Assembly: GCF_000424305.1 (NCBI RefSeq)
Contig: NZ_AUJQ01000003.1
Location: 248,001 to 312,000 of the forward strand
DNA from: Pseudobutyrivibrio ruminis AD2017
GTDB lineage: Bacteria; Bacillota; Clostridia; Lachnospirales; Lachnospiraceae
Reading direction: 5' to 3'
DNA length: 64,000 bases
Part shown: piece after piece, positions 1,721-63,955 of the stretch
Position numbering within the stretch: the stretch's first letter is position 1
How the letters are laid out: the number at the start of each line of letters is the position of its first letter
Made by a program: the position numbers and the translations under genes
The notes under the pieces: generated by a model
Seen by the model: the letters and a program-made list of their open reading frames with translations, nothing else
What the model was told of the DNA's origin: nothing
Databases searched by the model: none

Positions 1721-1795
1721 AGCTAGAAAAGTGATTATTTTCAAGTTGTACAAAAACAAAACCCTAGGGAGTTGCCGCTCTCTAGGGTTTTTTCT
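1721..1795 (+). ncRNA. Putative type I antitoxin RNA (RNA II-like)
   Basis: A transcript of about 75 nt is predicted from a good promoter to the hairpin terminator. It contains TAGAAAAGTGATTATT (1724-1739) and TTGTACA (1746-1752). The same strings occur in the same order at 1896-1911 and 1921-1927, inside the 5' coding part and translation start of the small convergent gene at 1824-1919. Because that gene is read from the other strand, these repeats make the two RNAs complementary. This is the geometry of the enterococcal par RNA I/RNA II locus. Function is inferred from layout only. Confidence 0.55.
1760..1795. terminator. Shared bidirectional terminator of the toxin-antitoxin pair
   Basis: A 12-bp stem AACCCTAGGGAG/CTCTCTAGGGTT (one G-T pair) with a 6-base loop. 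Six Ts follow on the plus strand and a TTTTGTTTTTG run follows on the minus strand, so it can stop both converging transcripts. Confidence 0.8.
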
Positions 1796-1823
1796 CGTTT
1801 TAAACGGTTGAGCATCCGCTAGG

Positions 1824-1919
1824 CTAATTGTCGCTACCATCTCCATCTAGCCATTTGCAAATGTAGTAGCCGACTACAGATGCTGCGACAGAGATTAGAA
1901 AAGTGATTATTATGTCCAA
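1824..1919 (-). CDS. Small membrane peptide, putative Fst/par-like type I toxin
   Basis: A 31-codon frame that starts with TTG eight bases after a perfect GGAGG. It begins MDIIITFLISVAASVVGYYI, a single hydrophobic segment of about 20 residues, followed by CKWLDG and an acidic end. This build (one membrane span plus a short polar tail) is that of Fst-type and related membrane toxins. A TATAAT-type -10 box lies at 1970-1975. The gene ends before the shared terminator and faces a putative antisense RNA that carries copies of its start region. It sits just inside the island end, where a stabilising module would be expected. A plain small membrane protein remains possible. Confidence 0.6.
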   Translation of the reverse strand: MDIIITFLISVAASVVGYYICKWLDGDGSDN

Positions 1920-2029
1920 ATTGTACACCTCCTTTCTGCTGTCAGAATGGAGTTGCGACAACGTCAGCGATTATATCATCAATCTTACAAATTCTCTATA
2001 ACTATTCTCTATTCGCTTGATAAATACAA

Positions 2030-33323: not shown

Positions 33324-33368
33324 AAAGTCAGATAATTTATTAACAAAATATAAAATAATTATAAATTA

Positions 33369-33395
33369 TTAGCACTCGTACTTGACGAGTGCTAA
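33369..33395 (+). promoter_or_regulatory. CIRCE operator of hsp20
   Basis: Perfect CIRCE element: TTAGCACTC, nine bases, GAGTGCTAA. It is the binding site of the heat-shock repressor HrcA. The preceding ATAATTATAAATTA is shared with the clpB promoter. Confidence 0.95.
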
Positions 33396-33507
33396 TTTTA
33401 GGTATATAACATAATCAACAAGAGGGGAACAAAAGAAATCCTCACTTGGAACTAATTCACAATCCACTAGACCGAGAGCCTAGCGTCAATAAAAGGAGGT
33501 AAGTATT

Positions 33508-33951
33508 ATGTTAATGCCTAGTATTTTATCAAATGATTTTATGGATGATTTCTTCTCAGTACCACGTGTAACAGGTTTTGGTGGTTCCAGATTCGATCGT
33601 GATTTTTCACGAATGATGACAACAGATGTAAAAGAAACTGATAATGCATATCAGCTAGATATGAACCTTCCAGGATTTGCTAAGGAAGATATCAAAGCAG
33701 AGCTTAAGGATGGATATCTTACAATCCATGCTGAGTCAAACAGCAGCAATGATGAGCAGGATGATGATGGCAACTTCATCAGACGTGAACGCTACACAGG
33801 TTCATGCTCTAGAAGCTTCTATGTAGGAGATGGAGTAACACAGGATGATATCCACGCAGCCTTCAAGGATGGCGTTCTTACCCTTACAGTTCCTAAGAAG
33901 GAAGCAATCCCTGAAAAAGAAGAAACAAAATATATAGCTATTGAAGGATAA
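33508..33951 (+). CDS. Hsp20 small heat-shock protein
   Basis: 147 residues behind AAGGAGG. A short N-terminal arm is followed by the alpha-crystallin domain (about 38-135: VKETDNAYQLDMNLPGFAKEDI, FKDGVLTLTVPKKE). A C-terminal I-x-I-like motif is in KYIAIEG. Holdase chaperone for unfolded proteins in the cytosol. The long leader carries a CIRCE operator, so HrcA should control it. A terminator follows at 33966. Confidence 0.93.
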   Translation: MLMPSILSNDFMDDFFSVPRVTGFGGSRFDRDFSRMMTTDVKETDNAYQLDMNLPGFAKEDIKAELKDGYLTIHAESNSSNDEQDDDGNFIRRERYTGSCSRSFYVGDGVTQDDIHAAFKDGVLTLTVPKKEAIPEKEETKYIAIEG

Positions 33952-34067: not shown

Positions 34068-34431
34068 TTAAGTGAATTTATACTCTTTTAGAATTCCACT
34101 TAAAACTTGGAAATTGAGTTAAGTGAGAAAAACAAAAAAATAATTCCACTTAACTTTACATAAATTTTTTGAGCTAAAGTTAAGTTTCATATCGAATTCA
34201 ATTTTTTCACTTATGTTTATGTTAAGTGATTTTAAAACATATCCGTTTCACACTTAACTCCCATAATAATTAATACCAAATGAAGCAAAAAAATTAAGTG
34301 AAAAAAATTTTTTCACTATAAAACTTAACAGGAAAGTGTGATTTTAAGTGAAAATATGTTTTTCTCATTTTCACTTAACTCCAGCAGAATTTTTTGTTAA
34401 GTGAAAAAGCTTTTTTAGAATATTCACTTAC
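34068..34431. repeat. Array A of 14 alternating TTAAGTG/CACTTAA half-sites
   Basis: Half-sites start at 34068, 34097, 34119, 34147, 34180, 34208, 34222, 34251, 34294, 34322, 34344, 34372, 34397 and 34425, alternating in orientation, so they form seven inverted pairs (28-29 bp between starts). Ten are perfect 7-mers and four have one to two changes. Pair-to-pair steps of 51, 61, 42, 72, 50 and 53 bp are near whole helical turns. The same array in inverse orientation lies at 63156-63519 with identical spacing. The surrounding 33996-34535 is otherwise non-coding. Confidence 0.85.
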
Positions 34432-34541
34432 TTCTTTAGCACATACATCTAAATGACAATTTAAACAGTGATACTACATGTTTACTGAAAGCTAAAATAT
34501 GTACTATACTGTTAAAAAATGTTAGAGAGAAGGAAATGCTT

Positions 34542-35399
34542 ATGAAAAAAGGCCTAGTTATGGAAGGTGGTGCCATGAGAGGCATGTTTACCTGCGGTGT
34601 AATTGATGTTCTCATGGAAAATGGAATTGAATTTGATAGTGCGGTGGGAGTATCTGCCGGCGCCACTTTTGGTTTGAATTATAAATCAAAGCAGATTGGT
34701 AGACCACTTAGATACAACAAAAAATATTGCAAGGATAAAAGATATGCCAGCATGGAGTCACTGATAAAAACTGGTGATATCTACAATGTGCCATTTTGCT
34801 ACGGCACACTTCCTTATGAATTAGATATATGGGACGTGGATACATTTTATAGCAATCCTATGGATTTCTATTGTGTAGCAACAGATATTAAAACGGGCCA
34901 GGCAGTGTATCACAAATGTGATAATTACGATGCCACTCCGGAAGGAGCTGATATCAGCTGGATTAGAGCATCAGCATCTATGCCTGTGGTTTCACGCCCA
35001 GTGGAGATTGACGGTGGAGTATATCTTGATGGTGGTATGTCAGATTCCATTCCGCTTAAGTTTATGGAGTCTCAGGGATGCGACAAGATACTTGTAATAG
35101 AAACTCAGCCTGCGGACTATGTGAAAAAGCCTCAGAAATACATGGGATTGATTAAGCTTATGCTAAGCAAATATCCTAAGATGATAGCTACAATGGCTGG
35201 CCGCCATGACATGTACAACAGCCAAAAGTCATATATTAAATCAAAGGAAGCCACAGGTGATGTCTTTGTCATCCGCCCAGATGCTCCACTTCACATCGGA
35301 GCCACTGAAAAGAACCCTGATGAGCTTCAAAGAGTGTATGACGTGGGCAGACGCATAGCAATTGAAAACCTGGATGAATTAAAAAAGTACTTGGCATAG
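34542..35399 (+). CDS. Patatin-like phospholipase
   Basis: 285 residues from the ATG at 34542; the ATG two codons earlier is too close to the AAGG site. Oxyanion-hole motif EGGAMRGMF, nucleophile elbow GVSAG and catalytic aspartate motif DGGMSD are all present, so the Ser-Asp dyad is complete. This is the compact bacterial patatin type (YjjU/RssA-like), a cytosolic acyl hydrolase acting on lipids. It stands alone between the hairpin-site array and a set of four stacked hairpins. Physiological substrate unknown. Confidence 0.88.
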   Translation: MKKGLVMEGGAMRGMFTCGVIDVLMENGIEFDSAVGVSAGATFGLNYKSKQIGRPLRYNKKYCKDKRYASMESLIKTGDIYNVPFCYGTLPYELDIWDVDTFYSNPMDFYCVATDIKTGQAVYHKCDNYDATPEGADISWIRASASMPVVSRPVEIDGGVYLDGGMSDSIPLKFMESQGCDKILVIETQPADYVKKPQKYMGLIKLMLSKYPKMIATMAGRHDMYNSQKSYIKSKEATGDVFVIRPDAPLHIGATEKNPDELQRVYDVGRRIAIENLDELKKYLA

Positions 35400-36500: not shown

Positions 36501-36524
36501 TTAATATTAAATAATTATAAATTA

Positions 36525-36551
36525 TTAGCACTCACACTTGTCGAGTGCTAA
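36525..36551 (+). promoter_or_regulatory. CIRCE operator of clpB
   Basis: Perfect CIRCE element TTAGCACTC-N9-GAGTGCTAA. The upstream 14 bases (ATAATTATAAATTA) equal those before the hsp20 CIRCE, so both promoters are built alike. Confidence 0.95.
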
Positions 36552-36599
36552 TTTTTGTGTTAAAACATAATTACAGACAAAAGGGTGGAGGTGAGATTT

Positions 36600-39238: not shown

Positions 39239-39389
39239 TGCATTATGCAACAAATTTGTAATTATATTGAAATATAGCAAGAATTCGTATCTAAATAGCA
39301 AGATTTAGCAATTGCGTTAAGTAAAATTAAGTTAAAATAATTTTGGCTTGAGGGGAGATGAGTTAAATCATTTTAAGGGAGAAATGAAG

Positions 39390-41446
39390 ATGAAAAAGAA
39401 ATTTTTAAAGAGCTTGATGAGCAAGCTCTTGGTAGTTGCATGCGCTGTAACAATGTGCGTATCAACACCATCAATCAATGCCCAGGCGGCAGAAACAACT
39501 CTTCTGAATACATATGGTTCTACATATGGTTATTCAGGAACATGTATCAATTTGTATCAGCTTCGTGATGCAAATCAGCTAGCATTTTTAAAGAAGCATT
39601 ACAACAGTATCACTCTCGAAAATGAGATGAAGCCAGATGCTTTGTTGGGAGGTTCGGCTAGACTTATCTCAACAGACCAGGCTAAGCGTCAGGGATACTA
39701 TATTCCTGATAATTATCGTGAGCCTTATGTTCCACAGATCAACTTCAGCACAGTAGATGAAGTTATGAAAATCTGCTACAACAATGGTCTTAAGATGAGA
39801 GCGCATACTTTAGTATGGCACTCACAGACACCTTCATGGTTCTTCAGAAGTAACTATGCTGGATACGGTGGCTTTGTAAATCCACAGGTTATGGATGCTC
39901 GTCTTGAAATGTATGTAAAGACAGTAATGAACCACGTATACACAAACCAGTATGGTAGTGTTGTATATGCATGGGATGTAGCAAACGAAGTACTTCATGC
40001 ACAGAATTCTGGCTGGGAAGCAGTTTATGGAAACAACAAGGTAAACGCTTCTTATGTAAAAAAAGCTTTCAACTATGCTTACGATACACTTGAGTATTTC
40101 AAGCTTACAAATTCTGTAAAGCTTTTCTACAACGACTTCAACACATACATGGAAGTTAACGATGTAATTAAGCTTGTTAATTACATCAACCAGGGAAGAA
40201 AGGTTTGCGCAGGTGTTGGTATGCAGTCACACCTTGGAACAGGCTTCCCTTCAGTTGATTATTATACAAATGCACTTAACTCATTCTTAAGAGCAGGCTT
40301 TGAAGTTCAGATTACTGAGATGGATATTTCTAACAAGGGTGATTATGACATGGCTAATTATGCATATAATCTCTTCAAGAATATCAACAAGGCTAAGAAG
40401 AATGGCGGTAAGATTACAAGCATTACATGGTGGGGACTTTCAGACAAAACAACATGGATTAGAAATCAGGCTCCATTACTGTTCTCTGCTCCAGGTTCAC
40501 CAAAGCAGTCTTACAACAAGGTAATTCAGGCTTACACAGAGGTTATTGGTCAGCCAGGTTCAAACCCAGCTCCACAGCCACAACCACAGCCTTCAAATCC
40601 ACAGCCTACACAGCCAAGTGGACAGAATGTAAACACAAATTCCACAGCAAACATTGCTAATGGTTGGTACTACCTTAAGAATACAAATTCTCAGAAGTAC
40701 CTTACAGTTGAAGGCAACAAGGCTGCAGCAGCTACAAATGTATGCATCAGCACAGGTACAGGTGTAGATGGTCAGAAGTGGTATGTTGAAAACTTAGGAA
40801 ATGGATACATTTCACTTAAGTCAGGTCTTGGCAACTTCATGCTTGATGTTGCAAATGGTAAGGATGAGGATGGAGCAAACATTCACATCTACAATGCTTA
40901 TGCACATGATCCACAGCAGTTTATCGTAAAGAACACAAAGAAGAGCGGTGTATACACAATCGCTACAAAGGTTTCTAAGGAAGTTAGATATATCGATGTA
41001 TATGAGCACAAGAAGACTGATGGCACAAACGTATGCCAGTGGTTATACTACGGCAATCCAAATCAGGAGTGGATTTTCGAGCCTGTACAGAATCAGTCAC
41101 AGCCTTCTGCACAGCCATCTAACCCACAGCCATCTAACCCAGCTCCACAGCCATCAACTACAGGCTTAAAGGCTACAGCTACAATCAACAGCTGGGGAAG
41201 TGGATACACAGCTAACATCAAGATTTCTAACAACACAGGAAAGAATGTAAATGGTTGGACACTTAAGCTTAAGAAGAGCGAAGTAAAGATGGATTCAAGC
41301 TGGAATGTAAACGTTAAGGAGTCAGGTGACTACTACGTAATCACACCAGTAGATTGGAACTCATCAATCAATAACGGTGGAAGCGTTGAGTTTGGATTTA
41401 ATGGTTCAGGCAGCGTTTCAAGCAACCTTTACATGGATGTTCAGTA
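39390..41446 (+). CDS. Secreted GH10 endo-xylanase with ricin-type lectin and CBM2 modules
   Basis: 685 residues from the ATG at 39390, eight bases after AAGGGAG. Signal peptide (cleavage near AQA-AE), then the GH10 barrel (about 35-385) with HTLVWHSQTPSWF, the acid/base E200 in DVANEVLHA and the nucleophile E310 in QITEMDIS. A Pro/Gln/Ser linker leads to a ricin-type beta-trefoil (CBM13-like, about 415-560, QEW/QKW repeats). A second linker leads to a C-terminal CBM2 (WGSGYTANIKISNNTGKNVNGWTL). It cuts the xylan backbone. The last 840 bases are nearly the same as in the next gene. Confidence 0.93.
40600..41446 (+). repeat. Lectin-linker-CBM2 module, copy 1
   Basis: Long near-identical direct repeat of 43021-43892. 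Protein differences are few, and the linker differs in the number of NPQPS units. A recent duplication or gene conversion is likely. Confidence 0.85.
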
Positions 41447-41534
41447 ATAGGTATGTCAGGTAACTAGTAACTAATAACTTTTAACTTCCAACCCCTCAAG
41501 CCATGTTGCTAAAACAAGAATAAGAGGGATTTTT

Positions 41535-43892
41535 ATGAATAAATTTATTAAGAGAATACTCGGACTAGCTTTGTCAGCAGCTATGTTTGCAGGAATGACA
41601 CAGGATGTGTTTGCTGCAACAGTTATCAATGGAAGCTACGTTAAGGGCGATAATGAAAACAATCCGTTAGTTACACAAAGCTATGGCGCTGACCCAGGTG
41701 TCATGGTATACAATGATACAGTTTATATTTACACTACAAACGATAGTGAAGAATTCGCTGGAAACAACGAAAATACATATGGAAAGATTAATCAGCTTAA
41801 CTGCTATTCATCAAAGGATATGGTTAACTGGACTGACCATGGTGCATTCAACATTGCAGGCAGAAATGGTGCAGCAAAGTGGGCTAGCAACTCATGGGCA
41901 CCAACAGTTTGCTGGAAGAGAATTAATGGCAAGGATAAATTCTTCCTTTATTTTGCAAACAATGCAAGCTCAATCGGAGTATTAACAGCTGATAGCCCAA
42001 CAGGTCCATGGCGTGACCCAATTGGCAGAGCTTTCATTACAAAATCAACACCAAACTGTAATGTAGAATGGCTTTTTGATCCAGCTGTCCTTGTAGATAA
42101 TGATGGAACAGGCTATCTTTACTTTGGTGGTGGTGTGCCAAGAGGACAGGATGCGCATCCAAGAACAGCCAGAGTTATCAAGCTTGGTAACGACATGATA
42201 AGCACTTCTGGTACAGCAGCTATGATTGATGCTCCTTACCTTTTTGAGGATTCAGGAATCAATAAGATTGGTAACACATATTACTATTCATACTGCTCTA
42301 ACTGGAACTGCCGCGATGGCTTCAGAAATGCAACAATCCAGGTGATGACAAGCCGTAATCCAATGGGACCTTTCACATACCAGGGTGAGATTATGGGAAA
42401 CCCAGCTCAATTCTTCAATGGTTCTGGTGGTAACAATCATCATCAGATTTTTGAGTTCAAGGGTCAGTACTATATGGCATATCATACTCACACAGTTGAG
42501 ACACAGGTAGTTAGAAGAAACCTTGGATACAGAACAACTCACATTGACAGAGTTAATGTTTCAAATGGAAGAATCAATGCAATCAAGCAGACATTAAATG
42601 GTGTTCCTATGAACCCATCTGTTAATCCATACGATTGGGTACAGGCAGAGACAATGTTTACTCAGGCTGGTATCCAGGTTCGCGGTAACAGTGATGGAAG
42701 TGCGTGGGTATCTGATATTAACAATGGCGACTTCACAAAGACTAAGGGCGTTAAGTTTACAAAGGGCGTATCAGCAATCACTGCAACAGTTCAGAGTAAC
42801 GGAAATGGAAGCATTGAAGTAAGAGAAGGTTCTCAGAATGGAACACTTCTTGGAACAATAGGTATCTCTGCAACAAATGGTTCATTCAAGGATTTCACAG
42901 GAAATGTAAAGAACGTTTCAGGAACAAAGGACATCTGCCTCGTATTCCGCGGAAACTTTGCATTTGATAGATGGAAGGCAACAGATGCTAATGGAAGCAC
43001 TGTAAATCCAGAGCCACAGCCACAGCCTACACAGCCAAGTGGACAGAATGTAAACACAAATTCTACAGCAAACATTGCTAACGGTTGGTACTACCTCAAG
43101 AATACAAATTCTCAGAAGTACCTTACAGTTGAAGGCAACAAGGCTGCAGCAGCTACAAATGTAATTATCAGCACAGGCACAGGTGTAGATGGCCAGAAGT
43201 GGTATGTTGAAAACTTAGGAAATGGCTACATTTCACTTAAGTCAGGTCTTGGAAACTACATGCTTGATGTTGCAGAAGGCAAGGGTGACGATGGAATCAA
43301 CATCCAGATTTACAATGCTTATGCACATGACCCACAGCAGTTTGTTGTAAAGAACACAAAGACAAATGGTGTTTATACAATCGCAACAAAGGCTTCTAAG
43401 GAAGTTAGATATATTGATGTATATCAGCACAAGAAGACTGATGGCACAAACGTATGCCAGTGGTTATACTATGGCAATCCAAACCAGGAGTGGATCTTCG
43501 AGCCTGTACAGAATCAGTCACAGCCAAGCAATCCACAGCCTTCAAACCCACAGCCTTCAAACCCACAGCCATCAAATCCACAGCCTACACAGCCAACAGC
43601 TGAAAGCGGTCTTACAGCTAAGGCTACTATCAACAGCTGGGGCAGCGGTTACACAGCAAACATCAAGGTATCCAACAACACTGGTAAGAACGTAAACGGT
43701 TGGACACTTAAGCTCAAGAAGAGCGAAGTAAAGATGGACTCAAGCTGGAATGTAAACGTAAAGGAATCAGGCGATTACTATGTAATTACACCAGTAGATT
43801 GGAATTCATCAATTGCAAATGGTGGAAGCGTAGAATTCGGATTCAACGGTTCAGGAAATGTTTCTACAAATCTTTACATTGATGTTCAGTAA
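41535..43892 (+). CDS. Secreted GH43 arabinofuranosidase (XynD-like) with CBM6, lectin and CBM2 modules
   Basis: 785 residues. Signal peptide to about residue 27 (VFA-AT). Five-bladed GH43 domain (about 35-360) with catalytic acids expected in YGADPGVMVYNDT, FDPAVLVDNDG and YMAYHTHTVE. A CBM6-like module (DWVQAETMFTQAGI ... DRWKAT, about 360-490) follows, as in arabinoxylan arabinofuranohydrolases of the XynD type. Next are a ricin-type beta-trefoil, an SNPQP-repeat linker and a CBM2. It should remove arabinose side chains from arabinoxylan and so help the GH10 enzyme encoded just upstream. The released arabinose fits the ara operon further on. Confidence 0.88.
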   Translation: MNKFIKRILGLALSAAMFAGMTQDVFAATVINGSYVKGDNENNPLVTQSYGADPGVMVYNDTVYIYTTNDSEEFAGNNENTYGKINQLNCYSSKDMVNWTDHGAFNIAGRNGAAKWASNSWAPTVCWKRINGKDKFFLYFANNASSIGVLTADSPTGPWRDPIGRAFITKSTPNCNVEWLFDPAVLVDNDGTGYLYFGGGVPRGQDAHPRTARVIKLGNDMISTSGTAAMIDAPYLFEDSGINKIGNTYYYSYCSNWNCRDGFRNATIQVMTSRNPMGPFTYQGEIMGNPAQFFNGSGGNNHHQIFEFKGQYYMAYHTHTVETQVVRRNLGYRTTHIDRVNVSNGRINAIKQTLNGVPMNPSVNPYDWVQAETMFTQAGIQVRGNSDGSAWVSDINNGDFTKTKGVKFTKGVSAITATVQSNGNGSIEVREGSQNGTLLGTIGISATNGSFKDFTGNVKNVSGTKDICLVFRGNFAFDRWKATDANGSTVNPEPQPQPTQPSGQNVNTNSTANIANGWYYLKNTNSQKYLTVEGNKAAAATNVIISTGTGVDGQKWYVENLGNGYISLKSGLGNYMLDVAEGKGDDGINIQIYNAYAHDPQQFVVKNTKTNGVYTIATKASKEVRYIDVYQHKKTDGTNVCQWLYYGNPNQEWIFEPVQNQSQPSNPQPSNPQPSNPQPSNPQPTQPTAESGLTAKATINSWGSGYTANIKVSNNTGKNVNGWTLKLKKSEVKMDSSWNVNVKESGDYYVITPVDWNSSIANGGSVEFGFNGSGNVSTNLYIDVQ
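43021..43892 (+). repeat. Lectin-linker-CBM2 module, copy 2
   Basis: Counterpart of 40600-41446 with a longer SNPQP linker. The two copies could recombine and delete or fuse the two genes. Confidence 0.85.
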
Positions 43893-47708: not shown

Positions 47709-47729
47709 TAGTTGCAGAGGAGGGAGATT

Positions 47730-50700
47730 ATGTTTAAGAAATTTATGGCAGCAAGCCGTAAAGTTAAACTACTTACCGCTGGCGGTGTGGGAGTTGTCGC
47801 TGCAGCGGGAGTTGCAGGTGCCATTGCCTTAGCATCTGGTAATGGTGAGATAACAATCGACAAAGAAATCGTAGCTTTAGCGGGAGGCTGGCCTCAGTCT
47901 TTTATGGCGGATGATTATGTTGAGCCAGAATTTGTAGATGACAAAAATCGTACAAACAATGCTTTCAATGTGGCTGACTTTGGAGAGCAGGGACATAATG
48001 GTTGGTTCTATAGATATGGCACCGCTACAAATCCTGCAGCATCAAAAAGAATGGAAAATTTTGATGGAGAAAAGTATTTCCAGCTTGGTAAGACAGGAAT
48101 GGAAATTAAATCAAACTTCATTCACACCGCAGAAGGTACAGCGCCAATCCTTGAATGGCGAGCTGCCAAAAAGGGCGACATAAATGTAAAACTTACTTAT
48201 GTAAAGAATGTAAACATGGATAAGAATCCTTCATATCCAGATGGTGTCACAATATATGTATACAAGGGTGACGAGGCCATCGGCAGATATGAGGTGGATG
48301 TTAAAACAGATGGAGAAACTGTTGTTGAAAAGGAACTAAGCAACTTATCAGTAGATGAGCTTGAAAGCCTTTACTTCATCGTTGATCCAAACATGAACAA
48401 TGCATATGATGGCGGTTCATTGTATGTAGCAATAAATGATGTAGATGCTAAGGGCCCATCAGCAATCAATGATGTGGCAAGAACTAATAACAATGCTAAT
48501 TCAATTGAGGACTTTGGTGCTCAGGGACAGAACGGTTGGACCTACAGATTTGGAAAAACAGGTAAGGATTCAAAGCTTGTTTCTACAGAAAACAATGGCG
48601 AATTCATGAATGTGACTTCTCCAAACCTTGTCCTTAGCCATTATTTCATTCATCCAGCTATCAATGATAATGCAATCCTTGCTTGGAAGCCAGCGGTTGA
48701 TGGCACTATTGAAATAAGAGGAAAGTACAAGAAGTTCGAGCAAAATGATGGAAATCCAGATTGGCCAGATGGTGTTATCGTATCTGTTTACAAGAACGAT
48801 GAAAAGCTGTTTAGCAAGAAGGTGGCAGCACCAAGAAAAGGCGAAAACGAAATTTCCTTCAGAGAGAAGAATTTGGCAGTAACAACAGCAGACGATTTAT
48901 ATTTTGTTGTTGATGCAGGTGGTAATTCATCTTACGATGGTGGCTGCTTTGATATTGATATTGTTGATAGAACAGGAGCTCAGACAGAGGCTGATGTTGC
49001 TATCGATGAGACAGAGACAAGACAGAATTTTGCAGATACAAAATACGATTTCGGAGAGCAGGGTAAGAATGGTTGGTTCTATCAGGATGGATTCGCAAGC
49101 GAAGCTACTAATTCTTACAACATTATGAACTTCGAAAAGGAAGAGGAGAGATATTTCGATCCTAGCTACTTAGAAATTAAGAGAGATTTCGTTAATCCGG
49201 GTAAGGGCAAATCCGCAGTTATAAAATGGAAGGTTGCTCAGGACGGCAAGGTTAAGGTTGATGCAGCTTACACAAAGCTCAAAAACGAGGACAAGAATCC
49301 TAGCTGGCCAGATGGAACAACAGTTACAATCTTCCATAACGATGAACCCCTTGTAACTGAGGATTTTGCTCCAGACAGATTAAGGGAAATTACAAAGCGA
49401 CTTGATGTTGCATCAGTAGACGTTAAGAAGGGTGACTTCATTACAATGGTTGTAGATCCTAAGTCTAACAATGCATACGATGCAGGAAAGTATGAATTCT
49501 CTATCAAGGGAATCACACCAATGGTTGGAAAGACCGAAAAGGACGTTACCTACACTGGTGGCCAGCGTACAAACAATGCATCGGTTCAAGATGATTTTGG
49601 TAAGCAGGGTAATGGCGGCTATTGCTATCAGTCAGGCTACTATCTTGATCCAAACTTTGCAGTTAACCTTGAAACATATAAAAAGGACGATAAGTATACA
49701 ACAATCGACGGTGTAGAAGTTAAGCGCGATTACATCATGCCAGGTAACAAAGGCCGTTCAGCTATTGTTAAATGGGTTGCCAACAGGGAAGGTTCTGTAG
49801 ATGTTTTGGCTGATTACACTAAGCACAAGAACGAGGACAAGAATCCTAGCTGGCCAGATGGAGTAGATGTTTACATCTTCAAGAATGATAAGCAGATTAA
49901 GAAGGAAAGCTTCGCTCCAGTAGTAGGCCGGGAGGTTACTAAGGATTTATCTGTTAATGGACTTATGGTTAAGCCGGGCGATTGCATCACACTTATGGTA
50001 GATGGCAAGGAAAACACAGCATACGATGGTGGTAATTTCAAATTCGTAGTTGAGGATGCTGAGCTTAAGACTGAGCCAATGGTAAACAGAAGCGGTAAGA
50101 ATTATGCAAACCTTGCACTTGATTTTGGTGCACAGGGAAGCAATGGATGGTATTACTGCGAAGGCCGTAGCGTTAACAAATATGAAATGCTACAGAATAA
50201 GACCGAAGACGGTAATGGATATATTTCAAGAAAGCAAAAGAATCTTGAGATTAAGAAGGATTTTGTTCAGCCTAGACTTAATGCTAATGCAATGTACAAA
50301 TGGGTAGTTGCAGCAAATGGTCAGATTGATATTACTGGAGATTACACAAAGTTTGGTCATGAGGATCCAAATGCCAGCTGGCCAGATGGTACAAGATTCG
50401 GCATCTACATAAATGGACACAATCTTATCGATGAAACTATTTCTTGCCCAAGAGGCGAAGATAGACATAACACAAAAGAGATTAACATTCAGAAGTTAAA
50501 TGTTAGTGCTGGAGATGTCCTTACATTCGAAGTAAATTGTAACAAGAATAATGCTTGGGACGGCGGACGTTTCAATATTGATATTGCAGATTCAAATGAA
50601 ATTAAGGTTGTTGTAGGTGATGAAGAGCGTACAAATAATACAGTCCTTGGTGCACTTACATCAATGGCTCAGGGCACAGACGGATGGTGGTTCTTAGATG

Positions 50701-52298
50701 GTAAGACACCAGCAGATGCTAAGGTTCTTACATATCTTAACGCTGATGGAACAGCTTACATGTCTACTAAGAATGAAGGCCTTGAAATGAAGAAGGACTA
50801 CGTTCATCCAGGCAAGGACAAGGCTGCGATATATCAGTGGGTAGCATACGAAGATGGCAAGATTGATATAATCGCTGACTATGTTAAGTTTGGTCAGAAT
50901 GACCCTAACCCAAATCTTCCAGATGGAGTAAAGGTTAGCGTTTACAAGAATAACGACGTTTTGTTAGAGCAGGATGTTGAGGCATTTAGAGGCGATGGCA
51001 ATGACAACAAGCTTGAAATCATGCTTACAAAGCTAGAGGTTGCAAGAGGCGACAAGATTTCATTTGTTATCGACGCAAAAGCTAACAATGCCTGGGATGC
51101 AGGTCGACTTTCTGCAAGCATTTATGCGGTAAAGGATAAGTCACCAGAGGAAGAAGCAAGAGAAAACAACACAAATCTATTCAATGCATTTGGCGAGCAG
51201 GGTTCTGACGGTTGGTACTATGGAATGTGCGACTGGGATGGCAAGAACTTCGAAAGACTTACATTTGATGCGGAAATGGGTAGATATTACAACAACGGTA
51301 AGCCAGAGCTTAAGGCTGATTTTGTAGAGCCAGGCAATGGCAGAAATGCAGCATACCAGTGGGTTGTTGCAAAGACTGGACGAATCAATGTAAAGGGAAG
51401 CTATACCAAGTTTGCTAACAATGCAGACCCAGCAGCAAACGGCGTATGTATGCGTATCTTTATCAATGGCGAAGAAAAGAAGTGGATTGGTGGAGATATC
51501 CAGGGCAACTTTGCAGCAGATGTTGTAAAGGGATTTGACGAGACATATCTTGTTCACGAAGGTGATGTAGTAATGTTTGCTATCGATTCTGACGGTAACG
51601 ACAGCTACGATGGCGGTAAGCTTGATGTTACAATCAAGGACGCTGACGAGGAAATTGAGACACCTGAAGAACCTGTAGTAGATGAAGACAGAACTAACGA
51701 TACATCACTTGCAGGCGGTTTCGGTAAGCAAGGTGAAAACGGTTGGTTCTACGGCGTATGCGATTGGGACGGCAAGAATTTTGAAAAGCTTCCATTTGAC
51801 GCTGAGAACAATAGATACTTCAATGGTGGTAAGCCAGAACTTAAGTCAGATTTCGTAGAGCCAGGCAATGGCAGAAATGCAGCTTATAAATGGGTAGTTG
51901 CAGAAGATGGCCGCATCCGAGTTCAGGGAAGCTACACTAAGTTTGCTAATAGTGCAGACCCAAATGCAAACGGAACCTGCATGAGAATCTTCTTAAATGG
52001 AGTTGAAAAGAAGTGGCTTGGTGGAGTTACACAAGGCAACTTCTCAGATGAAAGAACAGTCACATTTGACGAACACTATGATGTTAAGAAGAACGACGAA
52101 ATCACATTCGCCATCGACCCAGACGGAAACGATGCTTGGGACGGCGGTAGATTAGAGGTTAACATTTCGGATGAGTCTGAGGATGAAGATGACGACGATT
52201 CTGATGAGACTGAGCCTGAGGAGGACGAGTCAGAGGATGCTAAGACTGATGAAGCTGAAGGCGAGGAAGTAACAGATAATAAAGAAACTGAAAACTAA
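47730..52298 (+). CDS. Large surface protein of eight tandem beta-rich repeats
   Basis: 1522 residues from the ATG at 47730 (GAGGAGGGA site). One N-terminal membrane span (LTAGGVGVVAAAGVAGAIAL) may be a signal anchor. Eight repeats of about 170-190 residues follow. Each begins RTNN...DFGxQGxNGWxY, has a middle NPSWPDGVxVxIFKND and ends D...N.AYDGG or AWDGGRL. The last two are closest to each other (GVCDWDGKNFEKLPFDAE). The tail is an acidic run of Asp/Glu. The pattern resembles a carbohydrate-binding beta-sandwich, but I do not recognise the family. It shares an operon with the GH32-like lipoprotein, suggesting polysaccharide binding. Confidence 0.7.
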   Translation: MFKKFMAASRKVKLLTAGGVGVVAAAGVAGAIALASGNGEITIDKEIVALAGGWPQSFMADDYVEPEFVDDKNRTNNAFNVADFGEQGHNGWFYRYGTATNPAASKRMENFDGEKYFQLGKTGMEIKSNFIHTAEGTAPILEWRAAKKGDINVKLTYVKNVNMDKNPSYPDGVTIYVYKGDEAIGRYEVDVKTDGETVVEKELSNLSVDELESLYFIVDPNMNNAYDGGSLYVAINDVDAKGPSAINDVARTNNNANSIEDFGAQGQNGWTYRFGKTGKDSKLVSTENNGEFMNVTSPNLVLSHYFIHPAINDNAILAWKPAVDGTIEIRGKYKKFEQNDGNPDWPDGVIVSVYKNDEKLFSKKVAAPRKGENEISFREKNLAVTTADDLYFVVDAGGNSSYDGGCFDIDIVDRTGAQTEADVAIDETETRQNFADTKYDFGEQGKNGWFYQDGFASEATNSYNIMNFEKEEERYFDPSYLEIKRDFVNPGKGKSAVIKWKVAQDGKVKVDAAYTKLKNEDKNPSWPDGTTVTIFHNDEPLVTEDFAPDRLREITKRLDVASVDVKKGDFITMVVDPKSNNAYDAGKYEFSIKGITPMVGKTEKDVTYTGGQRTNNASVQDDFGKQGNGGYCYQSGYYLDPNFAVNLETYKKDDKYTTIDGVEVKRDYIMPGNKGRSAIVKWVANREGSVDVLADYTKHKNEDKNPSWPDGVDVYIFKNDKQIKKESFAPVVGREVTKDLSVNGLMVKPGDCITLMVDGKENTAYDGGNFKFVVEDAELKTEPMVNRSGKNYANLALDFGAQGSNGWYYCEGRSVNKYEMLQNKTEDGNGYISRKQKNLEIKKDFVQPRLNANAMYKWVVAANGQIDITGDYTKFGHEDPNASWPDGTRFGIYINGHNLIDETISCPRGEDRHNTKEINIQKLNVSAGDVLTFEVNCNKNNAWDGGRFNIDIADSNEIKVVVGDEERTNNTVLGALTSMAQGTDGWWFLDGKTPADAKVLTYLNADGTAYMSTKNEGLEMKKDYVHPGKDKAAIYQWVAYEDGKIDIIADYVKFGQNDPNPNLPDGVKVSVYKNNDVLLEQDVEAFRGDGNDNKLEIMLTKLEVARGDKISFVIDAKANNAWDAGRLSASIYAVKDKSPEEEARENNTNLFNAFGEQGSDGWYYGMCDWDGKNFERLTFDAEMGRYYNNGKPELKADFVEPGNGRNAAYQWVVAKTGRINVKGSYTKFANNADPAANGVCMRIFINGEEKKWIGGDIQGNFAADVVKGFDETYLVHEGDVVMFAIDSDGNDSYDGGKLDVTIKDADEEIETPEEPVVDEDRTNDTSLAGGFGKQGENGWFYGVCDWDGKNFEKLPFDAENNRYFNGGKPELKSDFVEPGNGRNAAYKWVVAEDGRIRVQGSYTKFANSADPNANGTCMRIFLNGVEKKWLGGVTQGNFSDERTVTFDEHYDVKKNDEITFAIDPDGNDAWDGGRLEVNISDESEDEDDDDSDETEPEEDESEDAKTDEAEGEEVTDNKETEN

Positions 52299-62358: not shown

Positions 62359-63054
62359 ATGTTAGAAGAGTTGAAGAAGCAGGTTTACGAGGCCAACATG
62401 GAGCTTCCAAAGCGTGGTCTTGTAACCTATACATGGGGCAATGTTTCCGGAATCGATAGAGAATCTGGAATCTTTGCTATTAAGCCATCTGGTGTAGAAT
62501 ATGAGGATTTGAAGCCAGAGGATATGGTACTTGTAAATCTTGATGGTGAAGTTGTTGAGGGCAAGTATAGACCAAGCTCTGATACAGCTACACACTTAGA
62601 GCTTTACAAAAAGTATGATAATATTGGTGGCGTTGTCCACACTCATTCTACTTATGCAGTAGCATGGGCTCAGGCAGGCCGCGATATTCCTTTATATGGA
62701 ACAACACATGCAGATTATTTCTGCGGAACAATTCCATGTACAAGAAACCTTACTGAAAAGGAAATCGATGAGGCATACGAGGTAAACACTGGTAAAGTAA
62801 TCATCGAAACCTTCGAAGACAGAGGAATCAACTCAAAGTATGTGCCAGGTGTTATCTGCAAGAACCACGGCCCATTCACATGGGGCAAGGATGCAGACCA
62901 GGCAGTGTACAATGCAGTTGTACTTGAAGAGGTTGCTAAGATGGCACTCTTCACCGAGCAGGTTAACCCACAGGTTAAGCCAGCTCCAGATTGTATCCGT
63001 GATAAGCATTTCAACCGTAAGCACGGCGCAAACGCTTACTACGGACAGAACTAA
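62359..63054 (+). CDS. araD: L-ribulose-5-phosphate 4-epimerase
   Basis: 231 residues, class II aldolase fold. Substrate-phosphate loop [10 protein letters not shown] and [10 protein letters not shown], catalytic acid region [11 protein letters not shown], and zinc ligands in [13 protein letters not shown] plus a histidine near GTTHADYF. C-terminal KNHGPFTWG is conserved. It converts L-ribulose-5-phosphate to D-xylulose-5-phosphate, completing the route started by AraA and AraB. A terminator follows at 63108. The upstream 261 bases hold a structured RNA. Confidence 0.95.
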
Positions 63055-63155: not shown

Positions 63156-63519
63156 TTAAGTGTATGTTTGAAAATCTATTTTTCACTTAACAAAAAATCG
63201 GGCAAAAGTTAAGTGAAAATAGGAAATTAGATTTTACACTTAAAATTGCAAAATCCTGTTAAGTTTTCTGAGAAGAAAAATTTTTTCACTTAACTTTTGG
63301 GGATGATTTTGGGCTGCTGTTAGGATTATTTAAGTGTGTATTAGGTGTTTTTGATTTTCACTTAACAGGTAGTTAAGTGTGAAATGCTATCTTGTGAATA
63401 AACTTAACTATACTTCAAACTATTTAATCAAAGCTAAGTGAAAAAATTTTTTTCTTTCTCCCACTTAACCCGCTTTTCAATTTTTAAGTGGTAAATGGAA
63501 AATGGCGAAATTCACTTAA
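63156..63519. repeat. Array B of 14 alternating TTAAGTG/CACTTAA half-sites (inverted copy of array A)
   Basis: Half-sites start at 63156, 63184, 63209, 63237, 63259, 63287, 63330, 63359, 63373, 63401, 63434, 63462, 63484 and 63513. Read on the minus strand the offsets are 0, 29, 51, 79, 112, 140, 154, 183, 226, 254, 276, 304, 329 and 357, exactly those of array A. The two 364-bp units align without a gap, although many bases between sites differ. Array B ends 10 bases before the csoR promoter. Confidence 0.85.
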
Positions 63520-63613: not shown

Positions 63614-63955
63614 ATGGAAAATACAGAAGATATCAAGGAAGAAGTTACTGTAGAAGCATGGGAATGCTGCTGTTCAGGTAAGCACAAAAGCCGTGATGAC
63701 AAGGAATATAAGGATTTAATGAATCGTCTTAAGCGTATCGAGGGCCAGGTGAGGGGCGTTGAGAATATGCTTGAAAAGGATGCATATTGTACTGATATTC
63801 TGATGCAGGTTTCTGCTATAACATCAGCACTTAACAGCTTTAACAAGGTGCTTCTGGCGAATCATGTAAAGACCTGCGTTGCTGATAATATCCGCGAAGG
63901 TAACGAGGATGTGGTGGATGAGCTTGTAGGTGTTTTACAGAAGCTGATGAAGTAA
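63614..63955 (+). CDS. csoR: CsoR-family copper-sensing repressor
   Basis: 113 residues. All-helical CsoR fold: LMNRLKRIEGQVRGVENMLEKDAYCTDILMQV, then ALNSFNKVLLANHVKTCV. The cysteine of the first helix (AYC) and the His and Cys of the second (NHVKTC) make the C-H-C copper(I) site. A short N-terminal extension adds a CCC cluster (ECCCSG). It represses copper export genes until Cu(I) binds. The next gene, cut by the window end, begins like a copper P-type ATPase. Confidence 0.9.
   Translation: MENTEDIKEEVTVEAWECCCSGKHKSRDDKEYKDLMNRLKRIEGQVRGVENMLEKDAYCTDILMQVSAITSALNSFNKVLLANHVKTCVADNIREGNEDVVDELVGVLQKLMK

Follow-up and report, generated by a model that had tools for sequence, protein, structure and literature searches.

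Why should two stretches of intergenic DNA keep the same internal spacing to the base while the sequence between the spaced elements drifts? The question is posed by the window, a stretch of 64,000 nucleotides of the genome of Pseudobutyrivibrio ruminis AD2017 (contig NZ_AUJQ01000003.1, positions 248,001 to 312,000), in which two arrays, A and B, are each built of dyads of the half-site TTAAGTG (Table 1). The consensus of the half-site is about wGTTAAGTkwAwww.

Two arrays of common spacing and their relatives

The initial annotation described B as an inverted, gap-free copy of A whose spacing is identical and whose geometry is under selection. The half-sites start at 0, 29, 51, 79, 112, 140, 154, 183, 226, 254, 276, 304, 329 and 357 in both arrays, counted from 34068 on the plus strand in A and from 63519 on the minus strand in B, and the degenerate TTAAGTT sites at 112 and 254 match up as claimed. 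Gaplessness stands only in half-site register, where 247 of 364 positions are identical, because a gap-tolerant aligner prefers two 1-base gaps. B is inverted relative to A, but because the core layout reads as a palindrome, little should be made of its orientation. Among other 364-base stretches of the window the best ungapped score after the A/B pair is 168/364, off-register and overlapping array B. Substitutions avoid the half-sites, as the proposal required, with 3 changes in 98 half-site bases against 114 in 266 spacer bases (Fisher p ~9e-16). The common layout of A and B is partly a matter of descent; geometry therefore needed testing on other copies, and this was done.

Table 1. Arrays, their parts and associated genes. 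Positions are those of the window except where a contig is named.
Feature	Position	Strand	Description
HSP20 gene	33508-33951		flanks array A
Array A	34068-34431	+	7 dyads = 14 half-sites; gaps 22, 33, 14, 43, 22, 25
Outer dyad pair of array A	34068-34153	+	conserved 22-bp gap; mirror image of 34294-34378
Central dyad of array A	34222-34257	+	one helical turn off the commoner layout
Right part of array A, dyads 5-7	34294-34431	+	gaps 22 and 25
Patatin-like gene	34536-35399		flanks array A
Aldolase-II-family (araD-like) gene	62359-63054		flanks array B
Array B	63156-63519	-	14 offsets identical to those of array A
Dyad pair of array B	63209-63293	-	22-bp gap; counterpart of 34294-34378
CsoR-like gene	63614-63955		flanks array B
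Partner gene	contig C6, 126300-127091		264 aa, PD-(D/E)XK-like core, next to uvrB, outside the window

In the genome to which the window belongs (G000; 2.91 Mb, 21 contigs) 13 such arrays were identified: contig C2 carries five, C5, C6 and C13 have two apiece, and C3 and C4 a single one. Exact dyads of the form TTAAGTG-N18..24-CACTTAA number 30 over the 2.9 Mb, a reversed-pattern control giving one, and all 30 fall inside the 13 arrays. BLAST gives weak partial matches elsewhere in the genome, and the two such places that were fetched (L057, L058) hold no array. The arrays are placed in intergenic DNA beside unrelated genes. We rejected a regulon: around the 13 arrays there are eight pairs of similar proteins, none of them between immediate neighbours, and the 30 flanking proteins are unrelated in Pfam content. 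A phage or plasmid origin was also rejected; a strict pattern of four half-sites matched no viral contig, and blastn with array A found nothing in plasmids or phages. Judged by eye only, array orientation shows no clear bias with respect to replication.

The fullest array of G000, with eight dyads on C5, has gaps of 24, 22, 33, 24, 33, 22 and 24 and is thus palindromic in layout. In A, B and an array at C2:48.7 kb the central dyad is shifted by ~10 bp (14+29+43 as against 24+28/29+33), the sum being kept within 1 bp. The last dyad of the right part of array A is absent from some other arrays. The 257 gaps between dyads fall at 12-14 (18), 20 (1), 22-25 (158), 33-35 (69), 43 (8) and 74-85 bp (3), the last three being probably missed dyads. 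The main clusters (12-14, 22-25, 33-35 and 43) are separated by 10-bp steps, so that successive dyads are about 4, 5, 6 or 7 helical turns apart from centre to centre. These counts are not independent, because many arrays are related by descent, and the family-wide test of period given below is better. In the gap count and later analyses dyads were taken at 28/29 by construction; a wider selection accepting 27-30 gave one true 30, in array A10, while the 27s were overlaps inside 33-bp gaps. By eye, an A/T-rich palindrome like TAAAATATTTTA can be made out in many of the 33-bp gaps of TTAAGTG arrays; it may be a further element that is bound or bent.

Are the half-sites read in DNA or in RNA? 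The dyads could form stems, as in a structured RNA or a series of terminator hairpins. Yet the arrays match none of the Rfam covariance models, and the interior arm positions of the dyads pair no more than composition predicts. Where both TTAAGT cores are intact and followed by G or T (275 dyads) the seventh bases are GG in 122, GT in 64, TG in 62 and TT in 27, as expected if independent. Since the half-sites vary independently they look to be read one by one in double-stranded DNA and not as an RNA hairpin, and we give the RNA reading virtually no credence.

How widely are the arrays distributed? In a scan of one genome per species (84,980 species), from which records near that of the window were possibly left out, the strict pattern matched 32 stretches, all in records titled Pseudobutyrivibrio. 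Among 397 Lachnospiraceae genomes, a sample with a single further Pseudobutyrivibrio genome, it was found in G000 only. A relaxed pattern matched 13 of 29 genomes of the genus, including G000, two of them (G018 and G026) by a single match; the other 16, some of them incomplete, gave no match. Outside the genus there were 6 matches in 60 genomes against 9 in the control.

The partner gene and its family

The array upstream of uvrB in G000 lies ~54 bp from a divergent gene encoding a protein of 264 aa, and just upstream of that gene. The partner protein and the family members tested have no Pfam or NCBIfam name. Orthologs of the gene (45-97% identity to that of G000) are present in G000, G024, G023, G005, G010, G002, G013, G026, G017 and G003. 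In nine of these the ortholog adjoins uvrB, and the contig of G010 ends too early to tell. All ten have array matches, though G026 barely so, with one pattern match and three degenerate dyads at uvrB. In the 16 genomes where the relaxed pattern found nothing, the family is represented solely by paralogs no more than 42% identical or, in G014, not at all. This co-occurrence is weak on its own, because the array-bearing genomes are mostly of one clade.

The family is multicopy, being found in 28 of 29 genomes of the genus with up to 11 matches each, in 89 of 299 Lachnospiraceae genomes sampled (E<=1e-30) and in 13 of 196 genomes of the class (E<=1e-15). Most of the paralogs examined have an upstream array of their own with a different half-site, such as GGATGCA, CATCCCA, GGTACCA, GCAGTAC, CCACGTA, TACGGAA, GAATACA, AGGCTAA and more; the types GGATGCA and ATGCATC overlap. 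In a first set of family loci an array exceeding shuffled sequence lies upstream of the gene in 40 of 51 and downstream in 2 of 51; in loci fetched afterwards the numbers are 19 of 24 and 5 of 24, with 22 of 24 upstream under other shuffles. The first set comprises 51 of 60 loci, corresponding to 50 distinct genes (L193 and L203 are one gene), many of them orthologous. It left out a duplicate (L216) and eight incomplete loci (L169, L181, L182, L183, L189, L205, L209 and L210). Arrays are nevertheless present at two of the eight, L169 and L210, and L182 gives 4 versus 3. Some of the 40 barely exceed the shuffles (e.g. L175, L208, L215 and L229), and the counts shift with the shuffles used. No array is present at 11 of the 51 loci, including all six of G551 and G588. 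Three of 27 loci were lost from the second set for having fewer than 250 bases upstream, and L249 repeats a gene of the first set.

These cis arrays share a rule of spacing. Taking as the leading period a distance of 40-90 bp between half-sites of the same orientation that recurs in at least three equal spacings, a period could be measured at 30 of the 40 flagged loci of the first set (one of them at 83 bp) and 15 of 22 in the second. The 45 periods are 50-53 (27), 61-64 (11), 73-75 (6) and 83 bp (1), so that 44 of 45 correspond to 5, 6 or 7 helical turns. With one period per half-site type, phasing at 10.5 bp gives R = 0.87 for 21 types in the first set and 0.93 for 15 types in the second (both p ~5e-5 versus uniform spacing). 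The periods are alike across half-site types, and different systems therefore keep the whole-turn rule while half-site and inner spacing differ.

Some loci of the family and its array types depart from the common arrangement. At L206 (G207) one half-site forms long arrays on either side of the family gene, as ACGGACG upstream and CACGGAC downstream. The CACTGTA type is also dispersed, in three stretches of G028 where the 3-7 kb fetched contain no family gene; at L244 of the same genome (C1:1150 kb) a family gene split into two reading frames lies beside CACTGTA half-sites, with other CACTGTA arrays elsewhere. A further dyad type, TACAGTGGTAA...TTACCACTGTA, occurs at L245 (G000 C10:23.5 kb) with no family gene in the 4 kb fetched, and also in G005, G006, G007, G010, G017, G024 and G026. 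An unannotated gut phage contig (MT839528.1:380-883) has a 33% match over 62% of the partner protein.

What kind of protein is this? An AF2 model of the OR37 ortholog, made from six sequences (pLDDT 82.9, pTM 0.76), predicts an N-terminal helix, a three-stranded sheet (residues 34-60), a long helix (62-92) and a C-terminal PD-(D/E)XK-like core, and E162, D192, E207 and H208 are invariant in all 26 aligned members. The predicted core fold and the conserved acidic residues place the family in the PD-(D/E)XK superfamily; nuclease activity is inferred. The PADLOC PDDEXK profile matches the family with a best E of 1.1e-6, and the nuclease-like domain resembles the C-terminus of PADLOC PDC-S68 in 26 of 26 members and HEAT_CxxC_PDDEXK in 17 of 26. 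A Foldseek search of the PDB gave no match at E<=1e-3; the highest probability was 0.84, for Card1, followed by R2 and restriction-type folds. Against viral models there were two matches at E<=1e-3, both uncharacterised, with phage homing endonucleases next. Weak PHROG and PADLOC matches of family members are to endonucleases or nuclease domains, and the N-terminal half of one paralog weakly matches a phage integrase profile (E 9e-4). Pfam lists 17 families for 26 members, the best at E 0.0055, and none is a transposase.

The half-site goes with the predicted sheet. Among 29 proteins, identity over residues 30-60 correlates with half-site similarity (Spearman 0.28; 0.30 as a partial correlation on the nuclease region, permutation p 0.001). 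Three other N-terminal regions do so more weakly (partial r 0.14-0.15, p 0.008-0.025), and the nuclease region gives 0.02. These are 29 of 30 hand-picked loci, orthologs included, no protein having been recovered for L226.

Within a divergent species, RUI201, the bases of cis and trans half-sites agree. Its seventh base is T in 15 of 18 cis half-sites and in 27 of 36 in two trans arrays, the latter against 44 of 152 in the trans arrays of G000 (p 6e-7). For cis arrays alone the comparison of 15/18 in G017 with 6/12 in G000 gives p 0.10. RUI201 was equated with G017 because their array sequence is identical.

Persistence and turnover of the arrays

Arrays occupy orthologous places in different species. 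Array B has counterparts at L067 (OR37) and at 97 kb in G003, and the uvrB array of G000 is orthologous to seven other loci. Over 20 pairs at orthologous places, changes affect 111 of 1945 half-site positions as against 900 of 4223 spacer positions; no p-value is attached because the pairs share sequences, and one pair (A2-G3_254) was aligned over only 85 columns. Array A6 and its G003 ortholog are 363 and 364 in length despite spacer divergence of 48%. Selection on geometry is thus supported by the constraint at orthologous places, the 10-bp steps of the gaps and the helical-turn periods of other half-site types, though length is not inviolate. Alignment is gap-free in just 8 of the 20 pairs. 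The others have 41 gaps between them, 29 of one base; A4 and G3_97 differ by six gaps of 1-7 bases, and A1 and L077 by one of 9.

The positions also turn over. The array at C2:48.7 kb in G000 separates two genes of an ABC-transporter operon, and an array of this type does so in G023 and G024 as well. The same gap holds other or mixed arrays in G005, G010 and G013. Of 21 other genomes with both genes, 20 have the matched gene ends within ~80 bases of one another (150 in G028, where the match to the first gene stops short), and G017 has a long stretch without dyads. The arrays in the operon gap of G005, G010 and G013 (L141-L143) include a second class, TTAAGTGTTATTT, with partner half-sites like GATAAGTGG. 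In G010 and G013 it stands in tandem with the first class, and it resembles the cis arrays of G003, G013 and G026.

In G003 two arrays at 927 and 928 kb, 1.1 kb apart, are identical in 363 of 407 aligned columns, while G002 has a single array at that place. The similarity stops ~14 and ~11 bases beyond the array, giving a copied unit of ~390 bp. The genes between and after this pair were considered as binders and set aside, their translations showing nothing DNA-binding by eye. A discrete unit of this kind, with inverted terminal half-sites, could be explained by a classical miniature inverted-repeat transposable element that belongs to an ordinary insertion sequence, as could the array that lies within the operon of three genomes. 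We consider that very improbable: no gene is common to the immediate neighbours of the 13 arrays of G000, the 30 flanking proteins scanned include no transposase by Pfam, no target-site duplication was seen by eye, the half-sites are under strong internal constraint, and arrays pair with a PD-(D/E)XK-like gene.

Might the arrays serve the chromosome? The family could be DNA-organising proteins with an idle nuclease fold, whose dispersed arrays tether or bridge the chromosome or act in regulation; the cis array would autoregulate the gene, and arrays spread by rare recombination would be kept by host selection. Orthologous positions held across species while spacers drift would be expected of such sites, as would their intergenic situation beside unrelated genes and the cis arrays directly upstream of the gene. 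None of the eight relaxed-pattern arrays of G003 is more than 925 kb from dnaA, on a contig of 2.70 Mb. That bias, sought at the suggestion of the initial annotation and mapped in G003 only, is suggestive for the eight arrays (KS p 0.039) but loses significance when close pairs are merged (p 0.38 for the six that remain). Moreover only 4 of the 8 G003 arrays have an ortholog in G000, 16 of the 29 genus genomes (some incomplete) have no match at all, and the proteins and their specificities diverge fast; nor would an idle fold be expected to keep the four invariant residues. We regard such an architectural or regulatory role as unlikely overall, while recognising architecture useful to the host as the main rival to mobilisation of arrays in trans.

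A putative array-reading protein and its satellites

We consider it probable that A and B are satellites in trans, copies of a platform for binding the PD-(D/E)XK-like protein encoded on C6, and that they spread in a REPIN/RAYT-like manner although this protein is unrelated to RAYT. The geometry and phasing of the arrays, the constraint on their half-sites, the pairing of gene with upstream array, the link between half-site and beta region, the dispersed copies and the presence or absence of the array in the operon can all be read from the sequences; binding, cleavage and copying are inferred. That the array is a platform for protein is highly probable, though nothing biochemical is known. Each dyad TTAAGTG-N21/22-CACTTAA would be a rigid site for one dimer, its half-sites read by the N-terminal three-stranded sheet. 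The dyads being whole helical turns apart, the dimers would sit on one face of the DNA, where they may bind cooperatively and wrap or bridge it. The C-terminal nuclease-like domain may act at or near the array and, at a low rate, let whole arrays copy into new intergenic places. This mobilisation in trans is an inference that we hold only tentatively, at rather less than even chances.

Some genomes do not fit easily. G007 (99% complete) keeps arrays but lacks the partner gene; the half-sites of its array at uvrB are mutated, and the 1.5 kb read upstream of uvrB shows no such gene. G015 (81% complete) also has arrays without an ortholog, as does G018 if its single match is real. G003 has a cis array with the core TAAGYG, to which its TTAAGTK satellites do not correspond. 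The protein of G003 is closer to those of G013 and G026 (55-56%) than to that of G002 (48%), and since G002, a near relative, has the matching protein type we suggest that the allele of G003 has been replaced, in which case these satellites would be orphans.

The persistence of arrays where the gene is missing could also be accommodated by an addiction or defence module, in which the array is a DNA decoy holding a toxic nuclease that is freed by loss of the array or by foreign DNA, and the satellites are extra decoys. Orthogonal half-sites and rapid divergence are in keeping with this, as is the resemblance of the nuclease-like domain to the candidate defence proteins PDC-S68 and HEAT_CxxC_PDDEXK. 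But the PADLOC match is confined to the shared nuclease domain, and a decoy needs no satellites far from its gene; we judge such a module rather improbable.

Returning to a platform with trans satellites, how does it compare with known systems? Among viral models the structural neighbours of the protein include phage Vsr-like/PD-(D/E)XK homing endonucleases, that of Bacillus phage Bobb at E 1.5e-3 and that of Enterococcus phage 113 at E 4.1e-3, but the matches are weak (TM ~0.3), and the array-linked gene is stand-alone and chromosomal and has its own array. In sequence the C-terminal domain is like the nuclease domains of AAA ATPase/RecD-like helicase proteins and of PADLOC PDC-S68; unlike these, the protein is stand-alone at ~264 aa and has an N-terminal region that tracks the half-site, together with an array. 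The sites of parS/ParB, Noc and RacA are single short palindromes dispersed in intergenic DNA and read by one protein per genome. The arrays resemble clusters of these in being dispersed intergenic chromosomal sites that are putatively protein-bound, and differ from them in consisting of 5-9 dyads in phase and in being paired with numerous paralogs whose sites differ.

The closest comparison is with REPIN/RAYT systems (PMC3116915, PMC8049555). There the protein gene is flanked by its own type of palindromic repeat, which differs for each protein, non-autonomous copies are dispersed in intergenic space, inheritance is vertical, and E. coli has 69-235 REPINs. Two of the defining features recur, cognate repeats that adjoin the gene and are of a different type for each gene, and dispersed non-autonomous copies, of which there are 12 trans arrays in G000 besides the CACTGTA arrays of G028. 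In other respects the systems differ. The protein is PD-(D/E)XK-like and not an HUH (Y1) tyrosine transposase such as RAYT. The unit is an array of phased dyads of 250-450 bp, and with no covariation of half-sites or arms it fails as a hairpin. In the two genomes counted the arrays are also fewer than the REPINs of E. coli, with 13 in G000 and 8 in G003.

We found no description of pairs of phased array and PD-(D/E)XK-like protein in the open-access literature. On balance, and with a little less assurance than for the reading of A and B, we think that this is an undescribed class of element, in which a PD-(D/E)XK-like protein reads its own phased-dyad array, several such pairs occur in one genome, and trans arrays spread and persist at fixed chromosomal places. 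If so, the system would be a common one, given the frequency of the family in Lachnospiraceae, and would offer a large natural set of proteins and half-sites with geometric rules from which to learn how a DNA-reading domain sets its specificity. It would also become possible to test directly whether REPIN/RAYT-like populations of commensal repeats arose in bacteria a second time, independently.

The window has other features of note. Two palindromes at 33347-33415 and 36503-36571 (TTAGCACTC...GAGTGCTAA), which we take to be CIRCE-like, are 87% similar, and one of them lies upstream of the HSP20 gene that precedes array A. A match to the Rfam model of the Streptococcus sRNA SpF66 at 1750-1954 (minus strand), adjoining a tRNA, is barely above threshold and odd for the lineage. 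The neighbouring large genes 39348-41447 and 41535-43892 share near-copies of 300 and 276 bp and 15-bp repeats (40574-43892), and a gene of 1528 aa (47712-52298) contains diverged internal repeats of ~530 bp.
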